Notes under the pieces: model-generated
Databases searched by the model: none
What the model was told of the DNA's origin: nothing
Seen by the model: only the letters and a program-made list of their open reading frames with translations
Position numbers and translations under genes: made by a program
Assembly: GCF_900156495.1 (NCBI RefSeq)
Contig: NZ_FTNT01000008.1
Coordinates: 1 to 64,000 of the forward strand
Direction of reading: 5' to 3'
DNA from: Williamsia sterculiae
GTDB taxonomy: Bacteria > Actinomycetota > Actinomycetes > Mycobacteriales > Mycobacteriaceae
DNA length: 64,000 nt
Shown here: positions 34,373 through 64,000 of the stretch, one piece after another
How the letters are laid out: each line of letters begins with the position of its first letter
How positions within the stretch are numbered: the stretch's first letter is position 1

Positions 34373-35538
34373 TTCGACGTATCCCGCTCGGCGGCCAGGC
34401 GCCAGGTGGAGCCGTCGCCGACCACCAGACCGTGGGCCTCCATCATCGCCAGGGCCGGCCGGACCTCCGCGGCCGTGAGACCGCTGGTCACCGCGATCTC
34501 GGTGACGGTAACCGCGCCGTGACGCGGGATCGCGTCGTGGGCACGACGTCCGGTCTCGTCGAGGATGTCGGTCACCCGATCGGTGACGACCGGCCGGCCA
34601 CCCAGGGCAGAGTCGCCGACCCGACCGCCGTCGGGCGCGACCAGACGCGACACCGCCCCGGCGTCGACCACCAGGTGCGCCTGTCCGTCGGCGATCATCC
34701 GGTGACACCCCAGCGACGTTGCGGAGGTGACCGGCCCCGGCACCGCGCCGAGGGGGACGTCGAGTTTGCGAGCCCACGCAGCGGTGTTGGCGGCGCCACT
34801 TCGCGCACCCGCCTCCACCACGATCACCGCTGACGAGAGGGCGGCGACCAGACGGTTGCGGGTGAGGAACCGGTGCTTGGCCGCCGTGGTCCCGGGCGCG
34901 TACTCGGTGATCACGAGCCCGGTGGACGCGATCTCGGAGAGCAGGCGGGCGTGGCCCGCCGGGTAGTCACGGTCGATGCCGCAGGCCAACACGGCCACCG
35001 TGGTCCCGCCCGAGGCGAGCGTCGCCCGATGGGCCACCCCGTCGATACCGTAGGCACCGCCGGACACCGTCGACCACCCGTCCAGGACCAGATCGGAACT
35101 CAGCCGCGCGGTGACGTGTTCGCCGTAACTCGAGGCGGCCCGAGACCCGACCAGAGCCACCGACCGGCCCACCACGTCGCTGAGCGGTGCCTGCCCACGC
35201 ACCCACAGCGCCAACGGCGGACCGCCTCGCGTCGCGGTGTCGGCGACGGACAGGCGCAACAGTTGCCAGGCCGGCCACTCGGCGTCGTCGGGGGTGATCA
35301 ACCGAGCGTCCACCGCCTCGGCGACGCGCAGGTGGTCGACGGCGCAGTCGAGGTGATGACGCGCCTCGGTCGCAGCGCGGACGTCACGATGACGCCCGGG
35401 AAGCGGGGTTCGATCGCGGATGGCCCCGGCGGCCTCCACGGGACCGACCTCGGCGACCAGGTTCGCGACCGCCGCACAGGGTGGTTCGGCGACGGCGGCC
35501 AGGTAGGCCCAGGCCGATCGGACGGTGTCGTCGGTCAT
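34369..35538 (-). CDS. dprA: DNA processing protein DprA/Smf
   Basis: A 389-aa single-strand DNA-binding protein that loads RecA onto incoming DNA. The Rossmann core shows VALVGSRAASSYGEH, SGGAYGIDGVAHRATLASGGTTVAVLACG and VVEAGARSGAANTA, and the C-terminus has a winged-helix domain. It starts on an ATGA overlap with the comM stop, so the two are translationally coupled. Confidence 0.95.
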   Translation of the reverse strand: MTDDTVRSAWAYLAAVAEPPCAAVANLVAEVGPVEAAGAIRDRTPLPGRHRDVRAATEARHHLDCAVDHLRVAEAVDARLITPDDAEWPAWQLLRLSVADTATRGGPPLALWVRGQAPLSDVVGRSVALVGSRAASSYGEHVTARLSSDLVLDGWSTVSGGAYGIDGVAHRATLASGGTTVAVLACGIDRDYPAGHARLLSEIASTGLVITEYAPGTTAAKHRFLTRNRLVAALSSAVIVVEAGARSGAANTAAWARKLDVPLGAVPGPVTSATSLGCHRMIADGQAHLVVDAGAVSRLVAPDGGRVGDSALGGRPVVTDRVTDILDETGRRAHDAIPRHGAVTVTEIAVTSGLTAAEVRPALAMMEAHGLVVGDGSTWRLAAERDTSN

Positions 35539-36137
35539 GCGTACCCCCGATCCCGGAACAACAATGCCTGTGCGACCTCGGACTCGGTCGGGGACTCACC
35601 GCCGCGTAGATCGCACAACGTCCATGCCAACCGCAGCGCGCGGTCGGCTCCTCGCGCGGTGACGCGACCGTCGCGCAGGAACAACTCGATCGGACGGGTC
35701 ACCGTGGGCGATAGTCGGAACCGTTGCCGTAGAGCCGATCCCGGCACCTCCGAGTTGGTGAGCCAACCGTGGTCGGACCAGCGGTCGATGGCCGCCGCGC
35801 GCGCTGCCATCACCCGTGCCCGAACCAGCGCGCTCGACTCCCCCACGGGGTTCATCAGCGCCGCGTTACCGGGTGGATCCATGCGTACCCGGATATCGAC
35901 CCGATCCATCAGCGGGCCGGACAGGCGACCGAGGTAGCGCCTGCGGGTGGTCGCCGAGCAGATGCAGTCGACGTCGTTGGCCGGTGCGCAGGGGCACGGA
36001 TTGGCGGCCAGGATCAGCTGGAACCGCGCAGGGTAGGCGGCGGTCCCATCCCGCCGCGGGACGCGGATCTCGCCCTCCTCCAGCGGTGTTCGCAACGTGT
36101 CGAGCACCTTCGGACTCAGTTCGGCACATTCGTCGGA
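35535..36137 (-). pseudogene. comM: comM (YifB, Mg-chelatase-like AAA+) 3' fragment, truncated by element insertion
   Basis: Only the C-terminal ~200 residues remain. Host-type reading resumes at DECAELSPKVLDTLRTPLEEG, within the Walker B/post-Walker region, and continues through FQLILAANPCPC, the zinc-like CXXC cluster and the C-terminal lid to the stop. Upstream of the Asp codon (36132-36134) the frame enters foreign sequence and meets a TAG. The P-loop half of the protein is missing from the window and is expected beyond the right end of the element. Confidence 0.93.
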
Positions 36138-36185: not shown

Positions 36186-37664
36186 ATGTACGACAGTCCA
36201 CACCCCCACCAGCGCAACATCATTCAGCCTTCAGCTGCAATCTACTCCCGCATCTCGTCGGACAAGACGGGAGCTGGGTTGGGGGTCGAGCGACAGGAGG
36301 CGGACTGTCGGGAACTTGCCGAACGGCTCGGAGTGAGCGTTGATCATGTACTCGTCGACAACGACCTCAGCGCCTACTCCGGGAAGCCGCGCCCTGCGTA
36401 CGAGGAACTGGTCGAACTGATCAAGACCGGGGGAATCGACTATGTGCTCGCGTGGCACACCGACCGGCTGCATCGCTCAACGACGGAGCTTGAGGACTAT
36501 GTGACGTACTCCGAACAGGGCCACGTCGCGACGCACACGGTCAAGGCCGGCCACCTCGACCTGGCTACCTCCTCCGGTCGATTCCAAGCGCGCATCATCG
36601 GGGCGGCAGCACGCTACGAGGTCGAGCACATGGTGGAGCGACAGAAGGCGGCAAAGCTCCAGGCAGCGCGTGAGGGGAAGTACCTCGGTGGTCAGCGCCC
36701 GTTCGGTTTCGAGCCTCGGCGTGTGTCCCTCCGCGAAACCGAAGCCGCCTTGATCCGCGAGATGGCCACGGCGGTCATCGCTGGCGGCTCGTACTGGTCC
36801 GTCGCGGTCGACCTGAACCGCCGCGGCGTCACCACACAGCACGGCAAGGAGTGGAACGCGTTGAAGGTGCGCAACGTGCTCATCCGCCCCATCAACGCCG
36901 GCATCGTTCGACACGAGGGAGTCGACCACCTTGCCCAGTCCCCCGCCATCCTGACTAAGACGGAGTGGCAGCAGCTGCACGTGGCCATCGAGCGCAATCG
37001 TCGAAAGTCGTCACACCCAGGGGTTTATCGAAAGCATCTACTGACAGGCTTCCTCTACTGCGGTGAGTGCGGCCAAGCCCTGCGTCATAAGAGCAAACAG
37101 CAACGTGACGGGTCATACCGAACCTGCGTCGCCTGCGGGACCACCGACAGTGAAACCGGACTAATGCGGGGGTGCGGGCGTGTATCCCGAATGTCAGACC
37201 CCATCCTCGACCTCGTTACCGACGCCGTGGTGTACCGCCTGAGCACGCCAGAACTCGTACAGGCGATGCGGGAAGCCGAAGGCACCTCGGACACAATCGA
37301 AGAGTTGCGGACTCGTCAGGCGACGATCGATGCGCGGATCGCGGAGGCTACGTCCGACTACTACATCAATCGGTTGCTGACGCGGGACCAGTTCGAAGCG
37401 ACCAAGGCCCAGCTCGACGCCGAGTTACAGTCCATCAGTCGTGCGCTCGGGCGGGAGACATCGCTGCTGGCCAACGCGGAGACCGAAGCTGACTTCCCCG
37501 CGACGTGGGACAACGCGACGCTGCAGTGGAGACGCACCATCCTTGCGGAACTGATCAATCAGATCATCGTGCATCGACGACCACGCGTGCCCGGCTACAC
37601 CTACCCCGGCTACAAGCAATGGCGGTTTGATCCGGACCTGATCGAGATCAGGTGGCGGGTGTAG
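36186..37664 (+). CDS. large serine recombinase (phage integrase)
   Basis: A 492-aa site-specific recombinase that joins attP and attB. The N-terminal resolvase domain holds the catalytic Ser24 in YSRIS and the conserved DNDLSAYSGK and HTDRLHRS blocks. The recombinase domain (about 165-265) is followed by a zinc ribbon with CGECG and CVACG, then a coiled-coil region and C-terminal basic segment. Size and order match phiC31/Bxb1-type integrases. It is the first gene after the comM junction, so it very probably directs integration there. No recombination directionality factor was recognised. Confidence 0.96.
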   Translation: MYDSPHPHQRNIIQPSAAIYSRISSDKTGAGLGVERQEADCRELAERLGVSVDHVLVDNDLSAYSGKPRPAYEELVELIKTGGIDYVLAWHTDRLHRSTTELEDYVTYSEQGHVATHTVKAGHLDLATSSGRFQARIIGAAARYEVEHMVERQKAAKLQAAREGKYLGGQRPFGFEPRRVSLRETEAALIREMATAVIAGGSYWSVAVDLNRRGVTTQHGKEWNALKVRNVLIRPINAGIVRHEGVDHLAQSPAILTKTEWQQLHVAIERNRRKSSHPGVYRKHLLTGFLYCGECGQALRHKSKQQRDGSYRTCVACGTTDSETGLMRGCGRVSRMSDPILDLVTDAVVYRLSTPELVQAMREAEGTSDTIEELRTRQATIDARIAEATSDYYINRLLTRDQFEATKAQLDAELQSISRALGRETSLLANAETEADFPATWDNATLQWRRTILAELINQIIVHRRPRVPGYTYPGYKQWRFDPDLIEIRWRV

Positions 37665-38661: not shown

Positions 38662-38820
38662 ATGAAAAACTCAACTGGTTTGCTGTGGGCGCTTGCCGCC
38701 TTGCTTATCGCTGCGTCATACTTCGGACCCATTCTGGTCCAGTCGTACGGCGTGATTGTGCTGATCGGCATCATCATTTTGGTGCTCTTGTTGATCTCCG
38801 GCTTCTTCCGACGGCGTTAG
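38662..38820 (+). CDS. 52-aa two-helix membrane peptide upstream of VirD4-like ATPase
   Basis: A strong AAAGGAGG ribosome-binding site sits seven bases ahead of the ATG. The peptide is almost entirely hydrophobic, with one helix about residues 6-22 and a second about 27-46, and ends in FFRRR. It lies 37 bp ahead of the ATPase gene on the same strand, so it may be a membrane partner of that ATPase. Its size escapes standard ORF cut-offs. Confidence 0.8.
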   Translation: MKNSTGLLWALAALLIAASYFGPILVQSYGVIVLIGIIILVLLLISGFFRRR

Positions 38821-38857
38821 TACGAACAGTTGATTATTCGCCCAAAAGTTAGCGAAT

Positions 38858-41230
38858 GTGCGAAGCTTGGTGTATATGGAAGGAGATTTCATATACACCT
38901 TGCTTTCTACATTGACCATCGCGCTTCTCTGCGCGATTCCTTGGATAGGATTGAAGTACACGATGGGTATTCAGGGTCAACGAAGTCGCGATCTGGGTCG
39001 GAAGACCTACCGGATCGTCTTTCCACCAAACGTCAAGCAAGAGCAAGTGGCGGCGTGGGTACGATCCGCCGGTGGCGGCCTGGACAACAAGCTCGGCGCG
39101 ATGGTGTCCCGGCCAACGATCGTGTTCGAGCTGCATGGGAAGAACTTCGCGCTCGAACACCGCATCCGCATCCCGCTCTCGGGTAAGCAGCTCGACTCGC
39201 AAGACGGGATGGACGTCGGCGCGCTTGACTCCTATCTCATCCAACAGCTGCGGGCCACCATCCCGAACATCGTCATCACCCCCGTGCGCGACGACAAGGA
39301 CGAGCCGCTCGAGATGATGTACGGCGTCGAGATCAACATGACCGACACCACCAGGATGCTGCGCATGGCGAGCGTCGCCGACCACGCGAACCGGGTGCTC
39401 GCGTCTGCAGGCCCGCTGCGAGAGGGCGAGCATGTCGTACTCAGCTGGGTCGTGTCTCACCCGCGCCAACCTAAGGCTCCCGAAGCCGACGGTTCGACCC
39501 GCAGTTCGAAGTCCTCGTGGTTGAGCATGTTGCTCGGAAGTCCTGCCGCGGGTCGCGACGAGCTCCAGGATCGACGCAGCAAGGTGGTCGAGCCGTCGTT
39601 CAACGCCATCGCCCGTATCGGAGCGGTCGCCGTTGATGACAAGCGTGCTCGCGACATCGTGTCCAGAATCGAACAGGCACTGAAGTCGGAGAACAACAGC
39701 CACGCGTATTTCGTCTCCCACAAGAAGTCACCACGGACCATCAGCGCTCGAATCAACGAGGGCACCACCCCCGCGATGTTCAAGACAATGCTGAACACGT
39801 CGGAGCTGATCGGGGTGCTCGGGTGGCCAATCAACGGTCCCCAGGTTGCAGGTTTGGTGTCGGGCGCGGTGCGACAGCTGCCGCCGTCGGGCGCGATTCC
39901 GATTCAAGGATTTCCCATCGGCGAAGCGAACTTCGCCGGCGCGGAGCGACCGTTGGCCTATGACGCCGAGCAGGCCTGCCGCCACACCTGGGTGCCAGGT
40001 ATCAGCACGATGGGTAAGACGACCTGGATGTTGAATCTATTCAAGTCGGTCGTCGATGCGGGACATGGTGCGGTCATCCTCGACATGAAGAAGGATATGG
40101 CCGAAGGAGCAATCGAGTACGTCCCGCGACATCGCCTCGGAGACGTGATCTACATGGACTTCACCGACGCCGAGCGCGCCATCGGTTACAACCCGATGGA
40201 GTTCGGCAAGCCCTCGGTTGTCGCCGACACGATCACCGAACTGATCCACAATGTGTACAAGGACGAATCAGGTGTCCACATGCGCCAGCAGCTGTACTAC
40301 GCAATCACGGCGCTGATGGAGGCTGGGCGCGCGACCGGAAAGACCTATACCCTCCTCGATGTCCAGCCGCTGCTCAATCCGCGCGGGAGAGATGAAGTCG
40401 CCTGGCGCGATGAGATCGTCAATAACATCGCCGATCGCCGGACCGCACGCTGGTTCACTGAATGGAAAGCCATGAGCGATCGTGAGAGGTCGACCAACCT
40501 TACGGCCCTCCTCAATCGCTATTGGCAGTTCGAACGGTCGGAACTGGCAAACATGATCGATCAGAGCAAATCCGCCTTCTCGATGCACGACCTGATCGCG
40601 AACAACAAGATTTTGATCGTCAACATGCGAGGCATGGACCAGTCGACGACGGCCGTACTTGCGGCCGTACTGCTCATCAACGGTGCATGGCAGGCGGTTC
40701 AAGCGTTCACCCCGGAGCGCGCCAACTTCCTGTTTCTCGATGAGTTCCACGACATCATGCGAATTCCAATCGGTTTCGAGTCCATGCTGGCTAAAGCACG
40801 CGCCGCGAAGTTCGGGATGATCTTGGCCAATCAGGAGATGAACCAGCTCACCCGCGACATGCAGGCAGCTGTACTGGCGAATGCGACGACCAAAGTGGCC
40901 TTTAAGGTCAAGCACGACGACGGCCGTACGCTGAGCCGCGAGGCCAGCCACAACATGGTCACGGCAGAGGACTTCGCGAATCTGCAGAGCTACCACGCCA
41001 TCGCGACCATCGCCACGCCCAACAGTGGAATCGCGCCGCCGGTCACGCTGACCACCTACCCCCCGGCAGCCACGTACGGCATGGGTGGCGAGATCGTCCG
41101 GCGCGCGCACCGGATGTCGCAGTCGGCCGGGTTTACCGAGACTGAGTCTCTTAAGCGCCGTACAGCGAATAAGCGGCCGCGTGACTGGGTAACCGACACC
41201 CCCGGCGAGAAAGACATCGACGATGTATAG
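38858..41230 (+). CDS. VirD4/TraG/TraD-type DNA-translocating ATPase (HerA-FtsK superfamily)
   Basis: A 790-aa protein with an N-terminal membrane helix (about 11-30), a long soluble region and a RecA-like motor. Walker A is GISTMGKT (381-388), Walker B is FLFLDE with Asp628-Glu629, and the following ILANQEMNQLTRDMQAAVLANA block is typical of type IV coupling proteins. Such proteins pump DNA or protein-DNA through conjugation pores. The GTG at 38858 is weakly supported; ATG 38876 is an alternative and neither has a good ribosome-binding site. No relaxase, VirB4 or other conjugation gene is seen in the window, and the surroundings are phage genes. It could serve mobilisation or DNA packaging. 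Confidence 0.85.
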   Translation: MRSLVYMEGDFIYTLLSTLTIALLCAIPWIGLKYTMGIQGQRSRDLGRKTYRIVFPPNVKQEQVAAWVRSAGGGLDNKLGAMVSRPTIVFELHGKNFALEHRIRIPLSGKQLDSQDGMDVGALDSYLIQQLRATIPNIVITPVRDDKDEPLEMMYGVEINMTDTTRMLRMASVADHANRVLASAGPLREGEHVVLSWVVSHPRQPKAPEADGSTRSSKSSWLSMLLGSPAAGRDELQDRRSKVVEPSFNAIARIGAVAVDDKRARDIVSRIEQALKSENNSHAYFVSHKKSPRTISARINEGTTPAMFKTMLNTSELIGVLGWPINGPQVAGLVSGAVRQLPPSGAIPIQGFPIGEANFAGAERPLAYDAEQACRHTWVPGISTMGKTTWMLNLFKSVVDAGHGAVILDMKKDMAEGAIEYVPRHRLGDVIYMDFTDAERAIGYNPMEFGKPSVVADTITELIHNVYKDESGVHMRQQLYYAITALMEAGRATGKTYTLLDVQPLLNPRGRDEVAWRDEIVNNIADRRTARWFTEWKAMSDRERSTNLTALLNRYWQFERSELANMIDQSKSAFSMHDLIANNKILIVNMRGMDQSTTAVLAAVLLINGAWQAVQAFTPERANFLFLDEFHDIMRIPIGFESMLAKARAAKFGMILANQEMNQLTRDMQAAVLANATTKVAFKVKHDDGRTLSREASHNMVTAEDFANLQSYHAIATIATPNSGIAPPVTLTTYPPAATYGMGGEIVRRAHRMSQSAGFTETESLKRRTANKRPRDWVTDTPGEKDIDDV

Positions 41231-41299: not shown

Positions 41300-41668
41300 T
41301 CAGTGTGCGGCGTCAAAAGCATCCAAGATCTCAGCGCGAATCCGCCCTCTGGGTGAGACGTCGTAGTTGTTCTTCCCGGCCCACTCCCTGATAGCCGCCA
41401 ACTGATCCTTGCTGCGCCCGGAGCCGGTGTTGGATCGACCGTCGCTCGCGGCCTTCCTTCCACGTCCGCGCTGACCCTTCACCTCGGCGGCGGCGTCGAC
41501 GAACGGCTGGATCGCTTTGTCGAACTTCGCCGCATTCTTGTCTGTCAGGTCGATCTCATACGACTTGCCGTTGTAGCTAAACGCCACAGTGTTGATGTCA
41601 CCCTCGTCGACAACCGTGCCATCGAGATCATCGACGAACTCGATGATGGTCTGTACGTTGCGCGCCAT
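41300..41668 (-). CDS. phage-encoded Lsr2-family nucleoid protein
   Basis: A 122-aa Lsr2 homologue, a DNA-bridging xenogeneic silencer that prefers AT-rich DNA. The N-terminal oligomerisation domain (TIIEFVDDLDGTVVDEG) and the C-terminal DNA-binding helix pair with the RGR hook (SPRGRIRAEILDAF) are both present, separated by a basic linker slightly longer than in chromosomal copies. It lies between the ATPase gene and the lysis genes. It may repress element genes, antagonise host Lsr2, or both. Confidence 0.93.
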   Translation of the reverse strand: MARNVQTIIEFVDDLDGTVVDEGDINTVAFSYNGKSYEIDLTDKNAAKFDKAIQPFVDAAAEVKGQRGRGRKAASDGRSNTGSGRSKDQLAAIREWAGKNNYDVSPRGRIRAEILDAFDAAH

Positions 41669-54786: not shown

Positions 54787-55887
54787 TTAGCTGGCGATCA
54801 CGCCAGAAAGTTTCGCGAATGCCTGGCTCAGGATCGGCATACCGGCGACGCGTTTCACGACGCGCAAGCTGATCTGGTTGGTCGCGAAGTCGTTGGCGTT
54901 CGTGCCGTAGTCGATCGACAGGCCTTGACGGTCACCGATGATGTAGTTCTGCCCGAAGGTGCCGAACCACAGCTCGGTCGCGTTCGTACCCGCGCCCAAG
55001 TTCGATGGGATCTCGTCGACGATGTAGACCGGACGGCCGAGCAACGTTGGTGGATTGCCGTTCGCCAGTCCGTCGCGCCAGATCGGACGACCCTGCGTGT
55101 CTCGGAGGTTGGTCAATGCCAATGCCCCAGCGCTCGAAGTCACGAAGACAGCGTTGCTGCGGTAGGCGGTGCCGAGTGCGAACATCAGCTTGGTCACATC
55201 GCTGTAGCTGACAGTTGCGCCGGCTTGTGCGACTGCGGTCGGTGTGATGTACGAGCTACGGAAGCCGTATGGCTGACCGCTCCCCGTGCCGTTGGTGAAC
55301 GCCTGGTTCTCTTGCAAGGCCAGAGCGAGCGCGAAGCGTTGCTCGACCCACGTCTGGAGGTCAGGCACGACTGCCGCGTCTTGGAGCACCTGGTTTGAGA
55401 ACGTGTCGAGGCCGGCCACTTCGTATGGAGTCAGCACGTTCGGTGCGAATACTTCTTGCGACGCCGTGATCGCGCCGGCTTCGGCAACCCAGTACGCCTG
55501 GACGACTGACGCCTCACTTGGCAGTTGTAGCTGTGCCGGCATGTTCGAGATGACTTTCGAGATTTGGCGGATCGGTGACACGTAGAGCATCTGCGTGATG
55601 ATGCTGTCGGCGACAGTGGTTGGAACCAGGATTCCGCCGGCGGTACCCGCACCGGGAGTACCGATGACTTGGCCTTTGGATTCGTACTGCTTCGAGACCT
55701 GGGCGTTTACCTCGTCGCGTTGTGTGCCGTCGCGACTGGCCAATGCTTTGTAGAATGCGCTCGCAAGCTGTGCGTCCTCGTTGGACTCGTTCTTGCGTAC
55801 GCTCTGGTAGGTCGTGGTGTTGTCTTTGGCTTTTTCTTTTTGCAGCTCTTTGAGTCGAGCGTCTATATAATCTTTACGTTTTGTCAT
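54787..55887 (-). CDS. major capsid protein (HK97 fold)
   Basis: A 366-aa capsid subunit. The first ~85 residues are helical and charged (delta-domain-like, cleavable), then the sequence TAGGILVPTTVADSIITQMLYVSPIRQISKVIS starts the core, and VYIVDEIPSNLG and DRQGLSIDYG mark the P-domain and A-domain end. A ribosome-binding site GGGGGTGAT precedes the ATG. Directly follows the protease gene, as in HK97-like phages. Confidence 0.93.
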   Translation of the reverse strand: MTKRKDYIDARLKELQKEKAKDNTTTYQSVRKNESNEDAQLASAFYKALASRDGTQRDEVNAQVSKQYESKGQVIGTPGAGTAGGILVPTTVADSIITQMLYVSPIRQISKVISNMPAQLQLPSEASVVQAYWVAEAGAITASQEVFAPNVLTPYEVAGLDTFSNQVLQDAAVVPDLQTWVEQRFALALALQENQAFTNGTGSGQPYGFRSSYITPTAVAQAGATVSYSDVTKLMFALGTAYRSNAVFVTSSAGALALTNLRDTQGRPIWRDGLANGNPPTLLGRPVYIVDEIPSNLGAGTNATELWFGTFGQNYIIGDRQGLSIDYGTNANDFATNQISLRVVKRVAGMPILSQAFAKLSGVIAS

Positions 55888-57060: not shown

Positions 57061-59355
57061 TTAGTTCGATTGGAGCACGGGCAGAAGCGTGCAGCGGCAG
57101 TTCGGATGCAAACTTGGCCCAATGATGTCGTCGTAGCTCAAATCCAGCTTCGCAACCTTCGGCTCCCCATCTTTTCCAACGGTGTCGACGGTCTGCACGT
57201 CGCCCTTGTCAAAGAAGTTCTGGTGCAGGTCAACGATCTTGCCGTCCATCTCTTCGCAGAACGCGCATACGTGATCTTCCGCCGTGAACCACTCCTTACC
57301 TTCGACGACCTCGCTTTGTGCCCATGCTTGTTCATCGGCATATGACTGCGCCCTAGCGGTTTCCGTCCGTGCGATGCGATCAGCACGCACGGTGGACGCG
57401 TTGCCCATGATGTTCTCGATACTGGCGCTCACCTCGCTCGACGTCGCACCAGCCTGCATGCCCTGCGAGAGGGCAGCCCGCAGTTGCTTTTCGGTCTCAT
57501 CGTCGACGTCCTTGGCGATCTTGACGGAGCGAGACTTGACGTACTGCTGGATCGCGTCAGCATAGGGGTTGAACTGGGAGGGGTCGCGGCCGAGCTCACC
57601 GGTGGCCGATCGGCCGGTGTCGTTCAGTACCAGGCGCAGTATCGGCTCGATCGCGGTGGCCATCTTGCCGTCAAAGCCACCCCAGTCAACCAGGTCGTTC
57701 AGCCAGTCCTTGCGGGTATAGCCCTTGGTCGGTCGTTGCAGCTGATCCAGCCGAGTCAGCAACTCACGCTTCTGGGCGTCGAACTGCTCACGTGTCGCCC
57801 GCATCAGGTGTTCCTCGTAGACCGACGCTCGCTCGGTGTACGCCTTGGCCTTCGTGTTGCCGCGCACGTCGCGCAACTCGCGCACATGCTCTTCCACCTT
57901 CGCCTTGGTCTCGTCGAGCTTCAGCGACTTACGCAACTCGGCCCAACTCGGCCCAGGGGGCTTGGCAACTATGGCCTTGGCGGGCTCGTCATCATCATCG
58001 GGGTCATCTTCGTCCTCAGGCAATTCGTCTCTTGGTGGCTTCTTCCCGGGTTTGTCCTCCGGTGGCTCGTCCTCCGACTCCGCCATAGGTGCAACTGGCG
58101 GTTTCTCGGCCAGCACATCCTCCAGCGACATAACGGCGTTGCCGGTCACGATGATGTGTTCACCCAGTCCATCCGGCAGCGGCTTGAGCCCATACATCGC
58201 ACGCGCTTCGTCCTTGGTGATGAACTTGTCCGTCGCGCCTTCGACGTACGCGCGCTTGGCATCGGCGTCTTCCGGTACGGGGTTCACGAAATCGAGCTCA
58301 AGTGACGGATCATAGATACCGACGAGCGACGCGTTGACCTGGCGCACGAACTGGCGGACCCGCGGCACGATGTTCACCACGGCGTTGACGTAGAAGCCGG
58401 CTTCGAGGTTGGCGCGGTTGACGTTCTCGACCAGCCCGATCATGCCGGGTGACAAACGGAACATCGCCAGGATCTCGTCGCGACTGAAGCGGCGGCTGGC
58501 CAGGTAGTCCAGGTCACGCGGTGACAGCATGTTCTGCACCACCGAGCCTGCCTCGATCAAGAGCGGCTTGCCGCTGTTCATGACGCCCGTGTAGTCGTCG
58601 AAGAACTGCTTTTTCCAGCGCTCGTACACCGAGTCGTCGAGCTGCTCGTTGGTCTGGAACACCACGCTCGGTCGTGCCCCGTTCTTCATGAGCATCTCGT
58701 TGACCGTCTTCATCTGCTCTTCGAGGTTCACCGTCTGCGCCGCCGCCGCCACGATCGACTGCCCGAGCCATGGGTTCGACGGGTCGGGGTTCAGGTCGCG
58801 GATGATCGACTGGATCGGGTAGGCGTGCTCACCCAGGTGCACCGTGCTGTCGCTGTAATTGCTCCCCAGGCGGAAAGCGGTCATGTGCGCCGGGAAGATG
58901 TCGAGCGCTGCTGGCAGTTTGCCCTTGCTCGGAATGAACGGGTTGCCGTCCAAGCCGCGCATGTAGACGTAGCTCTCCCCCACGATATTCATGTAGGTGA
59001 AGTGCAGCTGCCGCAGCTGTTCGCCGGTGTGAAGCGCATTGGGACTGTTGAGCAGGTCCATGATCTCCATGGCCGGGTCACCGAACGCCACCTCGACTTT
59101 GGTGCCGTCCTTCTTCTTGCGAAACAGTTTGAGCTCAACGGCCGCGCACGGATCGGCGATGGCACCGTTGGCGGTGTAGACCCAGCCGGTCAACGCCGTG
59201 ATCTGCTCGGCCTTGGTGTCGTAGCGCTTGAGTGGGCCACCCGATCCGGGGAACATCAGGCCACCGGTCGGGTTCAGCGCTGGCACGAGGCTCTTCCCGA
59301 GCTTGAAGAAAGTGTTTGCGAGACTAACTCGGAATGATTGCCGCGGTTGTGCCAT
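57061..59355 (-). CDS. portal protein fused to MuF-like minor head domain
   Basis: A 764-aa protein. Residues 1-410 read as an HK97-type portal (TGWVYTANGAIADPCAAVELK, FRLSPGMIGL, YGLKPLPDGL). An acidic Pro-rich linker (about 425-475) follows. The last ~285 residues carry the MuF signature: RADRIARTETARAQS, a CAFCEEMDGKIV metal-like Cys pair, and HPNCRC. MuF is usually a separate protein, so this is a fusion of the DNA-entry ring with the minor head protein. Confidence 0.92.
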   Translation of the reverse strand: MAQPRQSFRVSLANTFFKLGKSLVPALNPTGGLMFPGSGGPLKRYDTKAEQITALTGWVYTANGAIADPCAAVELKLFRKKKDGTKVEVAFGDPAMEIMDLLNSPNALHTGEQLRQLHFTYMNIVGESYVYMRGLDGNPFIPSKGKLPAALDIFPAHMTAFRLGSNYSDSTVHLGEHAYPIQSIIRDLNPDPSNPWLGQSIVAAAAQTVNLEEQMKTVNEMLMKNGARPSVVFQTNEQLDDSVYERWKKQFFDDYTGVMNSGKPLLIEAGSVVQNMLSPRDLDYLASRRFSRDEILAMFRLSPGMIGLVENVNRANLEAGFYVNAVVNIVPRVRQFVRQVNASLVGIYDPSLELDFVNPVPEDADAKRAYVEGATDKFITKDEARAMYGLKPLPDGLGEHIIVTGNAVMSLEDVLAEKPPVAPMAESEDEPPEDKPGKKPPRDELPEDEDDPDDDDEPAKAIVAKPPGPSWAELRKSLKLDETKAKVEEHVRELRDVRGNTKAKAYTERASVYEEHLMRATREQFDAQKRELLTRLDQLQRPTKGYTRKDWLNDLVDWGGFDGKMATAIEPILRLVLNDTGRSATGELGRDPSQFNPYADAIQQYVKSRSVKIAKDVDDETEKQLRAALSQGMQAGATSSEVSASIENIMGNASTVRADRIARTETARAQSYADEQAWAQSEVVEGKEWFTAEDHVCAFCEEMDGKIVDLHQNFFDKGDVQTVDTVGKDGEPKVAKLDLSYDDIIGPSLHPNCRCTLLPVLQSN

Positions 59356-61354: not shown

Positions 61355-61822
61355 CTACCCGTTCGTAGTCCAAACGAGCGACATCAATACCAGCGCCGCC
61401 AGCAGTCCGACGATGAGCAGCAGACCCGTTTGCAGCCGCTCTGAGGGTCTCCACGGCACAGACCAGCTCGTTGGTCGCGTCGCACTGCCGGACACCGCCT
61501 GGACGGCTCCAGTGGGGTCGTACGTGTACAGCGCGATGCCCATCGACTTGGCGTACTCCACCGCCTGCTTGCTGTAACCGCTGGCAGCGAAGAACATGAG
61601 TTGCTTGTCAGTGTCAGTACCGCGAGCACCCACAAGAAGCTGGAGATCGGGTCTGCCGGCGACTCCCCCGCGCCACTTCACCTGCGCCAGCGCCTTGCGC
61701 GACCGCACGTCGATACCGCCATCGGATCCGCCTGTCGTGGCAGTCGCGTCAATGAACCCCCACTCGCGCATCTTGGCGGCGGCGTTAAGCTCGGCTTGGT
61801 GGGCGGAAGTGATGTAGTTCAT
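61355..61822 (-). CDS. Mrr-type restriction endonuclease with C-terminal membrane helix
   Basis: A 155-aa protein. The Mrr-cat core shows GGSDGGIDV with catalytic Asp38 and ALAQVKW giving the Gln47-x-Lys49 pair. After the domain a hydrophobic helix (about 130-152, LQTGLLLIVGLLAALVLMSLVW) predicts membrane anchoring. Mrr-like enzymes cut modified or foreign DNA. Membrane-tied forms are unusual and suggest action at entry sites. Confidence 0.82.
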   Translation of the reverse strand: MNYITSAHQAELNAAAKMREWGFIDATATTGGSDGGIDVRSRKALAQVKWRGGVAGRPDLQLLVGARGTDTDKQLMFFAASGYSKQAVEYAKSMGIALYTYDPTGAVQAVSGSATRPTSWSVPWRPSERLQTGLLLIVGLLAALVLMSLVWTTNG

Positions 61823-63217: not shown

Positions 63218-64000
63218 ATGTCCGGTGGCCCATTCTCACAGCCCGTCGAACAACGCATGGCCGCTGGCGCACGCGGTGAACTGCTCAAGACCGTGCCGAT
63301 CGTGCAGCAGGGACGCAAGAACGACGTGCCATGGGTCATCGGCATCTATGCCGGCGGCGTCGTGCTCTCCATGATCCTGACCGGCGTGTTCTACGACTCG
63401 GCAGCCGCCCGCGTCGTCTCCACCCTGTTCGTCTGGGCCATGTGGATCGCCATCGCCTACCTCTTCGTCGCCATCGGCACCAAGCTCGCGCACAACATGG
63501 CCACCTGGGGCATTGCACTGGTCGCAGGAGTGTTGGCAGTGCTCAGCACGATCGGCAACGTCATCGCACTATCGACGCTGAACACCGCGAACAACCTCTT
63601 CGCCGGCACATCGGTACACCTGCCCGGAGCCGGCACCTACGGCACGCTCATGGTCGTCAACGCCGCAGTAGCGGCGATCGCGTTCACGCTCACCGTGAAG
63701 ATGAGCCGCGCCATGAAGAACCTGTCGAGCGCGCCGGCTGCGCCCGGAGCACCTGCCGCCCTCGAACCCGCTCCGCAACAGCCGAACGTCGGATACCCGA
63801 CGCAGCAGGCTCCGTCGGTTGGATACCCCACGAATGCCACGCCCGCCGCGGGCTACCCGGCGCAGTCACCTCAGCCGACGACCGGTTACCCCTCGGTCGG
63901 TTACCCGCAGCAAGCACCGGCCACCGGCTTCGCGAGCAACGCCCAATCGCAATACCCGAGTCCCCCGCGCCACGAGCCCAAGACGTACGACGACCAGGCT
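63218..64000 (+). CDS. multi-helix membrane protein with GYP-repeat tail (3' partial)
   Basis: A frame of 261 codons with no stop before the window end. GGAGG stands five bases ahead of the ATG. Four hydrophobic helices (about 41-61, 67-89, 98-116, 137-160) are followed by a Pro/Gln/Ala-rich tail with repeated GYP units. Cytoplasmic termini are likely. Function unknown; the tail could bind partner proteins. Host-like GC suggests origin from an actinobacterial genome. Confidence 0.75.
   Translation, partial: MSGGPFSQPVEQRMAAGARGELLKTVPIVQQGRKNDVPWVIGIYAGGVVLSMILTGVFYDSAAARVVSTLFVWAMWIAIAYLFVAIGTKLAHNMATWGIALVAGVLAVLSTIGNVIALSTLNTANNLFAGTSVHLPGAGTYGTLMVVNAAVAAIAFTLTVKMSRAMKNLSSAPAAPGAPAALEPAPQQPNVGYPTQQAPSVGYPTNATPAAGYPAQSPQPTTGYPSVGYPQQAPATGFASNAQSQYPSPPRHEPKTYDDQA

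Follow-up and report, generated by a model that had tools for sequence, protein, structure and literature searches.

A VirD4-type coupling ATPase and a predicted relaxase in a siphovirus prophage of Williamsia sterculiae: a possible split mobilisation set

A coupling-type ATPase and its small upstream neighbour

The DNA analysed here, hereafter the window, comprises bases 1-64000 of a 242,739-base contig from the 4.44 Mb genome of Williamsia sterculiae. It holds part of a siphovirus prophage in which a gene for a putative coupling ATPase of the VirD4/TrwB/HerA superfamily (type IV coupling protein, T4CP) follows a short open reading frame (ORF) for a 52-aa peptide; beyond the window, the same prophage encodes a protein of the relaxase-related family PF13814 (Replic_Relax) (Table 1).

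Table 1. Features of the prophage and its borders (contig positions, identical to window positions up to 64000)
Feature	Position	Strand	Evidence
comM (Mg-chelatase-like) 3′ part, left of prophage	35535..36107	-	Pfam Mg_chelatase positions 122-201
Large serine integrase	36186..37664	+	Resolvase 1.3e-26, Recombinase 1.1e-11, Zn_ribbon_recom 6.7e-6; PHROG integrase 8.8e-91
52-aa two-helix membrane peptide, probable ATPase membrane partner	38662..38820	+	Helices, recurrence, Shine-Dalgarno AAAGGAGG
Putative VirD4/TrwB/HerA-superfamily coupling ATPase (T4CP), 790 aa, start uncertain	38858..41230	+	Pfam, predicted fold, family, context
Lsr2-like protein, convergent to ATPase gene	41300..41668	-	Pfam Lsr2 1.5e-20; cluster C2
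Major head protein	54787..55887	-	PHROG 4.2e-67
Portal with Mu F-like domain	57061..59355	-	Pfam Phage_portal 2.9e-40, Phage_Mu_F 1.7e-13
Terminase large subunit (TerL), beyond window	73595-74803	-	Terminase_6N 2e-8, Terminase_3C 6.7e-7; PHROG 2.6e-40
PF13814 (Replic_Relax) protein, beyond window	102494-103201	-	9.2e-19, over cut-off
comM 5′ part, beyond window	114909-116066	-	Pfam Mg_chelatase positions 1-115

The ATPase ORF is open throughout. Its Walker A (GISTMGKTT) and Walker B (FLFLDEFH) motifs, already noticed in the original prediction, are recognisable in all 32 sequences compared, the window included, with departures (first G replaced by A in G075 and IMEa, AK in place of GK in IMEe). 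Two Pfam families match above the cut-off, TrwB_AAD_bind (E = 5.4e-11) and TraG-D_C (1.7e-6); the HerA/DUF87 match (0.0047) lies under it. The protein thus unites a RecA-type motor bearing both Walker motifs with the TrwB_AAD_bind/TraG-D_C signature of coupling proteins, in agreement with the earlier description of a VirD4/TraG-type coupling ATPase in a siphovirus. Its top PHROG, 5156 (3.3e-36), has no known function, and a phmmer search against solved structures returned a single weak, unrelated match. Using an alignment of 16 sequences, we obtained an AlphaFold2 model with mean pLDDT of 83.2. The closest solved folds are DndH-C (Z = 29.2), TrwB (28.3 over 367 residues) and VirB4 (27.9), followed by the L. 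pneumophila type IV coupling complex (25.7) and HerA (25.4). Several HerA defence complexes are also among the matches, and FtsK and TcpA rank lower (Z near 18-19). Since adjacent entries within the top three score as ties, the predicted fold alone places the ATPase in the VirD4-VirB4-HerA group with no choice within it; the Pfam matches and the partner gene favour a VirD4 identity. Helices at residues 452-581 of the model lie between the Walker A and Walker B parts of the motor. As a separate observation, the coupling ATPase at L036:8062-10950 (G054) carries an insertion in the Walker A loop with C first and HN-S last (alignment A1). Inteins have C at the start and HN-S at the end, the hallmarks of this type of insertion.

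The membrane anchor proposed earlier for the ATPase depends on the start codon. Residues 14-32 have a hydropathy of 1.93, compared with 1.59 for the best stretch elsewhere, so that one N-terminal membrane helix is likely if translation starts upstream. Start candidates include GTG 38858, TTG 38900 and ATG 38963; the helix is present with the first, largely kept with the second and lost with the third, which aligns with the start of the ATPases of L047 and L048, both without a helix.

The original prediction also described a two-helix peptide with a strong ribosome-binding site just upstream of the ATPase gene, and this description holds. The peptide has two hydrophobic helices and no Pfam match, its ORF is preceded by the strong Shine-Dalgarno sequence AAAGGAGG and ends 37 bp before GTG 38858. 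The ORF is not a chance one, because relatives have a short two-helix ORF upstream of the same ATPase gene. The distance is at most 125 bp in the window and in L024, L047, L048, L049, L051, L055, L058, L060 and L061, and 662 bp in L059; in L062 a single helix passes the threshold, and L054 has a one-helix ORF upstream. In L046, L050, L052 and L053 the contig or locus end cuts at or near the ATPase gene. Eight phage ATPases (L047, L048, L049, L051, L055, L058, L060 and L062) have no N-terminal helix passing the threshold, and the two-helix peptide may therefore serve as their membrane anchor. We consider the 52-aa peptide to be the probable membrane partner of the ATPase.

The prophage and its relaxase-family protein

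The prophage interrupts the comM gene and spans contig positions ~36.11 to 114.91 kb; these borders and the length of ~78.8 kb are defined by the two comM parts at its ends. At 36 kb the G+C content drops from ~70% to 58%, and it increases again from ~114 kb onwards. The serine integrase is the first gene at the left end. Besides the virion genes in Table 1, a prohead protease, a tape measure protein, Dit and minor tail proteins were found among the genes called by a simple in-house script, and with TerL, portal, protease, major head protein, tape measure and Dit the siphovirus looks intact. The siphovirus module that the original prediction saw around the ATPase gene is thus real; the prophage, however, continues for ~51 kb past the end of the window.

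It was in this part, beyond position 64000, that the original prediction advised looking for a relaxase, and the PF13814 protein is indeed encoded there. It is the only match of its family at E ≤ 1e-6 in the host genome, and its gene lies 61 kb from the ATPase gene on the opposite strand. PF13814 is treated as the canonical MobC relaxase by Coluzzi 2017 (PMC5357655). According to a 2025 review (PMC12857230), MOBC relaxases are related to PD-(D/E)XK endonucleases, and TraX of pAD1 has an N-terminal winged helix. Candidate catalytic residues (H, E, PD, ExD, K, Y) are 94-100% conserved in 32 sequences, the prophage copy included, and by its profile match the prophage protein is a predicted MOBC-type relaxase. 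We modelled the family on the phage relative L059, which is 30% identical to the prophage copy (pLDDT 90.9). Residues 1-85 match winged helices (Z ~10), and residues 94-233 match the restriction endonuclease BstEII (Z = 9.4 over 126 residues) and Cdn1 (9.0), values near 9-10 being moderate for single domains. The model of the L059 relative thus shows the published MOBC anatomy of a winged helix plus a PD-(D/E)XK-related domain.

The pair in cellular genomes and viral records

To find out how often the two families occur together, we scanned 249 genomes of the host's order (ATPase at E ≤ 1e-30 with at most four candidates scored per genome, PF13814 at E ≤ 1e-6). The ATPase family was present in 62/249 and PF13814 in 76/249. 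A PF13814 gene lies on the same strand at most 2.5 kb downstream in 84 of the 91 ATPase matches, some of which are pieces of one gene, with a median gap of 327 bp; conversely, the ATPase is upstream of 84 of the 137 PF13814 matches. The seven ATPase matches without a near PF13814 gene include the window itself. BLAST clustering found both genes in 12 of the first 16 neighbourhoods; a later profile search added the relaxase in L036 and, 32 kb away, for L024. In a prophage-like region from the host's family (G015), the ATPase gene stands beside homologous tail genes and the relaxase gene is 32 kb away. The neighbourhoods L032-L035 and L038 have further shared genes resembling a type IV secretion system (T4SS); in L033, the one tested of these five, the gene beside the ATPase is VirB4-like (9.3e-18) and the next matches PrgI (1.4e-17). 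Other neighbourhoods are small elements, and for these BLAST clustering showed none of those T4SS-like genes within 20 kb. In plasmids, 101 records match the ATPase distantly, each over less than 80% of the query, and 82 of them are predicted to be non-mobilisable.

Scans of viral and genome collections by single protein retrieved no relative, whereas alignment-based scans did. Within IMG/VR, the latter yielded 12 records by ATPase and 20 by relaxase, 14 of them new, or 26 in total, with the ATPase in 20 and PF13814 in 24. PF13814 is present in 10 of the 12 records found by ATPase, the two misses being pieces of 16.6 and 18.0 kb, and the ATPase in 8 of the 14 found by relaxase alone. Judging from coordinates, and if the gene order of relatives holds, the expected ATPase place falls beyond the contig end in G074, G080, G083, G084 and G085, with G081 borderline. 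The two genes are adjacent in G086. In a sample of 11 records selected by tail proteins, five have both genes, two the relaxase only, none the ATPase only and four neither. Both relaxase-only records (G085 and G307) end before the expected ATPase place. The records with neither gene are G303, a truncated copy of this prophage, one 15 kb record, and G305 and G308, which probably lack both genes.

The record IMGVR_UViG_2681812929_000001 (G303; L105, L107) is this prophage, with 100% identity at portal and tail genes. At 35.7 kb it omits both the coupling gene and the relaxase gene, an example of how virus catalogues can hide exceptions.

Among isolated phages, neither the ATPase of the window (tblastn against 50,697 phage records) nor the relaxase found a match. 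With the L049 ATPase as a query, 25 phage records were retrieved at 20-23% identity, 22 of them from Bacillus and Lysinibacillus phages.

The gene order around the ATPase is shared by relatives. Convergent phage genes face the ATPase gene in 15 other loci, with Lsr2 among them in 11/15 (the neighbourhoods of L053 and L054 were covered in part). Typically, integrase, small ORFs, two-helix peptide and ATPase on the plus strand are followed by Lsr2, lysis and tail genes on the minus strand. In L048, L049 and L059, genes that occupy opposite ends of the integrated prophage stand on the two sides of the integrase, no more than a few kb from it, and L051 is ordered likewise around a possible integrase ORF. 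The most likely reason for these orders is that the genomes had already been excised or packaged by the time of sequencing; another attachment place or tandem copies are less likely alternatives. L048, L050 and L060 have another structural gene set (clusters C21-C24) with the coupling gene at the same place, and L048 and L060 also keep Lsr2 there. Since the coupling gene is kept with different structural sets, the set crosses virion types.

Evolution of the ATPase and the relaxase

Of the 18 virus records that carry both genes, three were excluded from the phylogenetic analysis, namely G065, with a partial ATPase, G073, with a stop, and G086, with genes in pieces; of the first loci, L034 and L037 were excluded, where no relaxase was found beside the ATPase. 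Trees were rooted for drawing only. In the ATPase tree, the 17 phage rows together with the Kribbella, Kibdelosporangium and G040 non-phage elements fall on one side of a branch supported at 100/100, and the window protein belongs to a group of four phage rows (100/97). The relaxase tree has a 96/90 branch with the 17 phage rows all on one side. Distances in the two proteins are correlated (Mantel r = 0.78 for 32 pairs, 0.62 for 17 phage pairs and 0.54 for phage pairs without a near-duplicate; permutation p = 0.0001). This shows a shared history of ATPase and relaxase, in which joint function and common phage descent are not separable. Three comparisons with dS below 2 gave dN/dS of ~0.11, 0.14 and 0.16 (ATPase 0.064/0.578 and 0.19/1.44; relaxase 0.20/1.26), which shows purifying selection; the pair G061/G064 was left out (ATPase dS 2.8, relaxase dS −1). 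Taken together, trees, distances and dN/dS make the set look old and largely maintained.

A possible mobilisation set in a temperate siphovirus

Peptide, ATPase and relaxase have stayed together despite deep divergence and despite their separate map positions, which argues for a joint task. In integrative mobilisable elements (IMEs) with the ATPase/PF13814 pair this task is taken to be mobilisation, and by analogy the same may apply here. Sequence, context and predicted fold support an IME-type set in the prophage, consisting of coupling protein, peptide, relaxase and serine integrase. We propose, with about even odds, that this temperate siphovirus carries a split mobilisation set whose coupling protein is the ATPase, and that the set provides a conjugation-like second route via a helper pore. 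The serine integrase would excise the prophage, the MOBC-type relaxase would nick an origin of transfer (oriT), and the peptide-anchored ATPase would engage the nicked DNA and drive the strand out through the pore of another element, as for IMEs. The phage would thereby have two horizontal routes, virions and conjugative mobilisation. The broader proposition, of a wide lineage of temperate actinobacterial siphoviruses that combine virions with an inherited mobilisation set and transfer naked DNA through the pores of others or their own pump, seems to us somewhat less probable than even.

It is customary to class phages and conjugative elements by one route of transfer each; a relaxase-coupling pair maintained in a phage lineage would blur this line. 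If the proposal is true, prophages might reach hosts beyond the infection range of their own virions, and conjugative mobilisation of an intact phage becomes testable in one lysogen.

By gene content, integrase, relaxase and coupling protein occur together without mating-pore genes (by two pore markers genome-wide and by Pfam on the scanned proteins), as in an IME; the portal, head, TerL and tail genes, however, are foreign to that class. A self-conjugative integrative element with its own T4SS is not supported: no match to VirB4 (PF19044, E ≤ 1e-3), which the original prediction had also advised looking for beyond position 64000, was found in the host genome, nor to PrgI (PF12666, E ≤ 0.01), the latter being a weaker test whose control matched 1/14 genomes. 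On those two markers the prophage is therefore at most mobilisable, and transfer would require either a helper pore or an autonomous pump. The conjugation/virion hybrid suggested originally gains support from the predicted relaxase in the same prophage; the pore markers are missing from the host.

An oriT was likewise to be looked for beyond the window, and none was accepted in the prophage. Repeats near the relaxase gene (contig 101908-102100) were rejected as a candidate, since part of them, translated by eye, gives a Cys-rich repeat on the minus strand, and a tandem-repeat search gave nothing. Repeat counts in 22 other loci, which compare positions and not repeat sequences, revealed no array at a common position; the best windows near the relaxase have 0-5 pairs, with 16 in L078.

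The missing pore markers and oriT both speak against mobilisation, as do several further observations. The relaxase fold rests on a relative with 30% identity and not on the prophage copy, and one paper assigns Replic_Relax to an element typed MOBT. In most phages the ATPase and PF13814 genes are not adjacent. Some viral copies are broken: the ATPase in G073 (one TGA) and G086 (two pieces), PF13814 in G083 (one TGA) and G086 (two pieces), and a match stretch in L081/G085 with four stops in frame. Finally, distant relatives of the ATPase (~22-23% identity) occur in SPO1-like phages; these are virulent phages, for which mobilisation makes little sense.

Comparison with known systems

The closest gene content is that of streptococcal IME class 8, with VirD4 coupling protein, Rel_PF13814/MobC and serine integrase; only two such IMEs appear in Table 2 of PMC5357655. 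The three signature families and the lack of mating-pore genes are common to both, whereas here the set is in a siphovirus with virion genes and in an actinobacterium, its relaxase and coupling genes are 61 kb apart and there is an extra two-helix peptide.

In phages, a known precedent for an ATPase/relaxase pair is that of the Bacillus tyroviruses Thrax1-5, with neighbouring genes for gp17 (type IV secretion protein) and gp18 (replication-relaxation). Their authors (PMC9703825) call gp11-18 plasmid-like and infer a transfer into an ancestral phage, proposing no phage function. Tyroviruses are likewise temperate tailed phages with a coupling/relaxation pair (gp17 being likened by description, not by sequence), but they infect Bacillus and themselves possess many replication genes. 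An insertion in B. subtilis phage 268TH007, present in one of two sister phages, carries an FtsK-like translocase and a replication-relaxation gene (PMC9476937); it resembles the present case as a motor plus replication-relaxation gene in a temperate siphophage and differs in that the motor is described as FtsK-like. A relaxase gene or oriT occurs in two P1-like phage-plasmids and in most of the plasmids derived from such elements (30; PMC10879196). These too are phage-related elements, but as described there the gain came mostly after loss of phage function, whereas the present prophage has virion genes that look intact, and its pair is found again in a range of phages. We found no description of the arrangement in actinobacterial phages in the open-access literature searched by title, start of abstract and passages, a search that does not prove absence.

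Alternative functions

The alternative that survives best, though we judge it rather unlikely, is phage replication: the PF13814 protein would start replication (e.g. rolling-circle, giving concatemers for the terminase) and the anchored ATPase would move or tether DNA, with no transfer. No Pfam replication initiator, primase, helicase or polymerase was found at E ≤ 1e-5 in 58 of the 69 genes at 61.9-114.8 kb; four more genes were covered by other scans, and seven were left out (1433 aa, 357 aa and five of 34-66 aa). Similarly, no replication family is among the 25 families listed (E ≤ 1e-4) for 68 proteins (ORFs ≥90 aa) around the relaxase in five phage relatives, the commonest of those listed being PF13814 (5) and ERF (4). 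The relaxase may therefore be the replication initiator of the phage, a further point against mobilisation. However, G305 and G308, which carry neither gene, also show no replication family in 10 selected of 39 proteins; the absence is therefore not specific to carriers, and the argument is weakened accordingly. In addition, many phage replication proteins are missed by Pfam. Published precedents are in favour, as MobT of ICEBs1 serves both transfer and replication, and the replication-relaxation protein is called essential for plasmid replication in the tyrovirus paper (PMC9703825). The remote relatives of the ATPase in SPO1-like phages are a further hint of DNA handling inside phages. Nevertheless, for replication a relaxase alone would be enough, leaving the retained anchored ATPase and peptide unexplained. 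If true, adoption of a relaxase-type protein and a VirD4-type pump for phage replication would also be unusual. As to the HerA-type motor for phage DNA handling envisaged originally, a packaging role was rejected as unlikely because the same prophage encodes a separate TerL with ATPase and nuclease domains; other DNA handling could still apply.

Alternatively, though we consider this improbable, ATPase, peptide and nuclease could export DNA without a T4SS, either alone, like TdtA or Streptomyces TraB, or via a type VII pore. The lack of VirB4 and PrgI matches in the host would fit, and type VII secretion has been proposed for relaxase-bearing M. abscessus plasmids. The precedent is TdtA of Thermus thermophilus, a membrane-associated hexameric ATPase of the HerA/FtsK family, encoded beside a NurA-type nuclease gene in an ICE-like (integrative and conjugative element-like) element and needed for DNA donation (PMC5365140). 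The likeness to the prophage, a membrane-associated HerA/FtsK-family ATPase plus a nuclease gene in an integrated element, is one of description and not of sequence: PF13814 is not NurA, the sections on TdtA report no phage genes, and TdtA works with the competence system of the recipient. Moreover, one branch of the ATPase family itself has VirB4 and PrgI genes alongside.

It also seems a long shot that the pair serves defence or superinfection exclusion, a HerA-like ATPase and a PD-(D/E)XK-type nuclease attacking incoming DNA at the membrane. PADLOC mad8 matches the ATPase (4.1e-17) in a scan that covered three proteins, DndH-C and HerA defence complexes are among the fold matches, which counts against mobilisation as well, and the ATPase gene adjoins the integrase. 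Phages often keep lysogenic genes near the integrase. Yet the nuclease gene is 61 kb away on the other strand, the relaxase family follows the ATPase in 84 of the 91 whole-genome matches, and membrane anchoring is not known as a trait of the matched defence rings. The neighbours identified around the ATPase gene are integrase, Lsr2 and tail-side genes.

Accidental cargo, a functionless coupling gene caught by insertion, is already disfavoured and very improbable: G305 and G308 appear to lack both genes and a few viral copies have stops or breaks, but this is outweighed by purifying selection in the tested pairs, the recurrence of the gene at this position next to phage genes in 15 further loci and the parallel divergence of ATPase and relaxase. 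The related idea of a simple insertion of a conjugation cluster is unlikely, because no other conjugation family was found among 58 prophage proteins scanned together by Pfam, the genes are 61 kb apart and the arrangement recurs in phages.

Other genes of the prophage

Beyond the window, the prophage encodes WXG100 proteins, a WXG100-like/GH-E nuclease polymorphic toxin and two ankyrin proteins of possible immunity function (contig 84346-87123, minus strand; L022:4346-7123). Toxin-immunity cassettes of a like kind are described in M. abscessus prophages (PMC8092301). A 1029-aa Eco57I/MmeI-type restriction-modification protein is encoded at contig 78909-81998 (minus strand; L083:8909-11998). 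Within the window, a protein with an Mrr-type restriction endonuclease domain (61355-61822, minus strand; Pfam Mrr_cat 2.2e-9) has homologues close to the coupling gene in L052 and L061. An element of Kribbella that is not a phage, and whose coupling protein and relaxase are of the families found here, also sits in comM; along the Pfam profile, its place and that of the window prophage coincide at position 122 (L056:8021-8641 and window 35535-36107).

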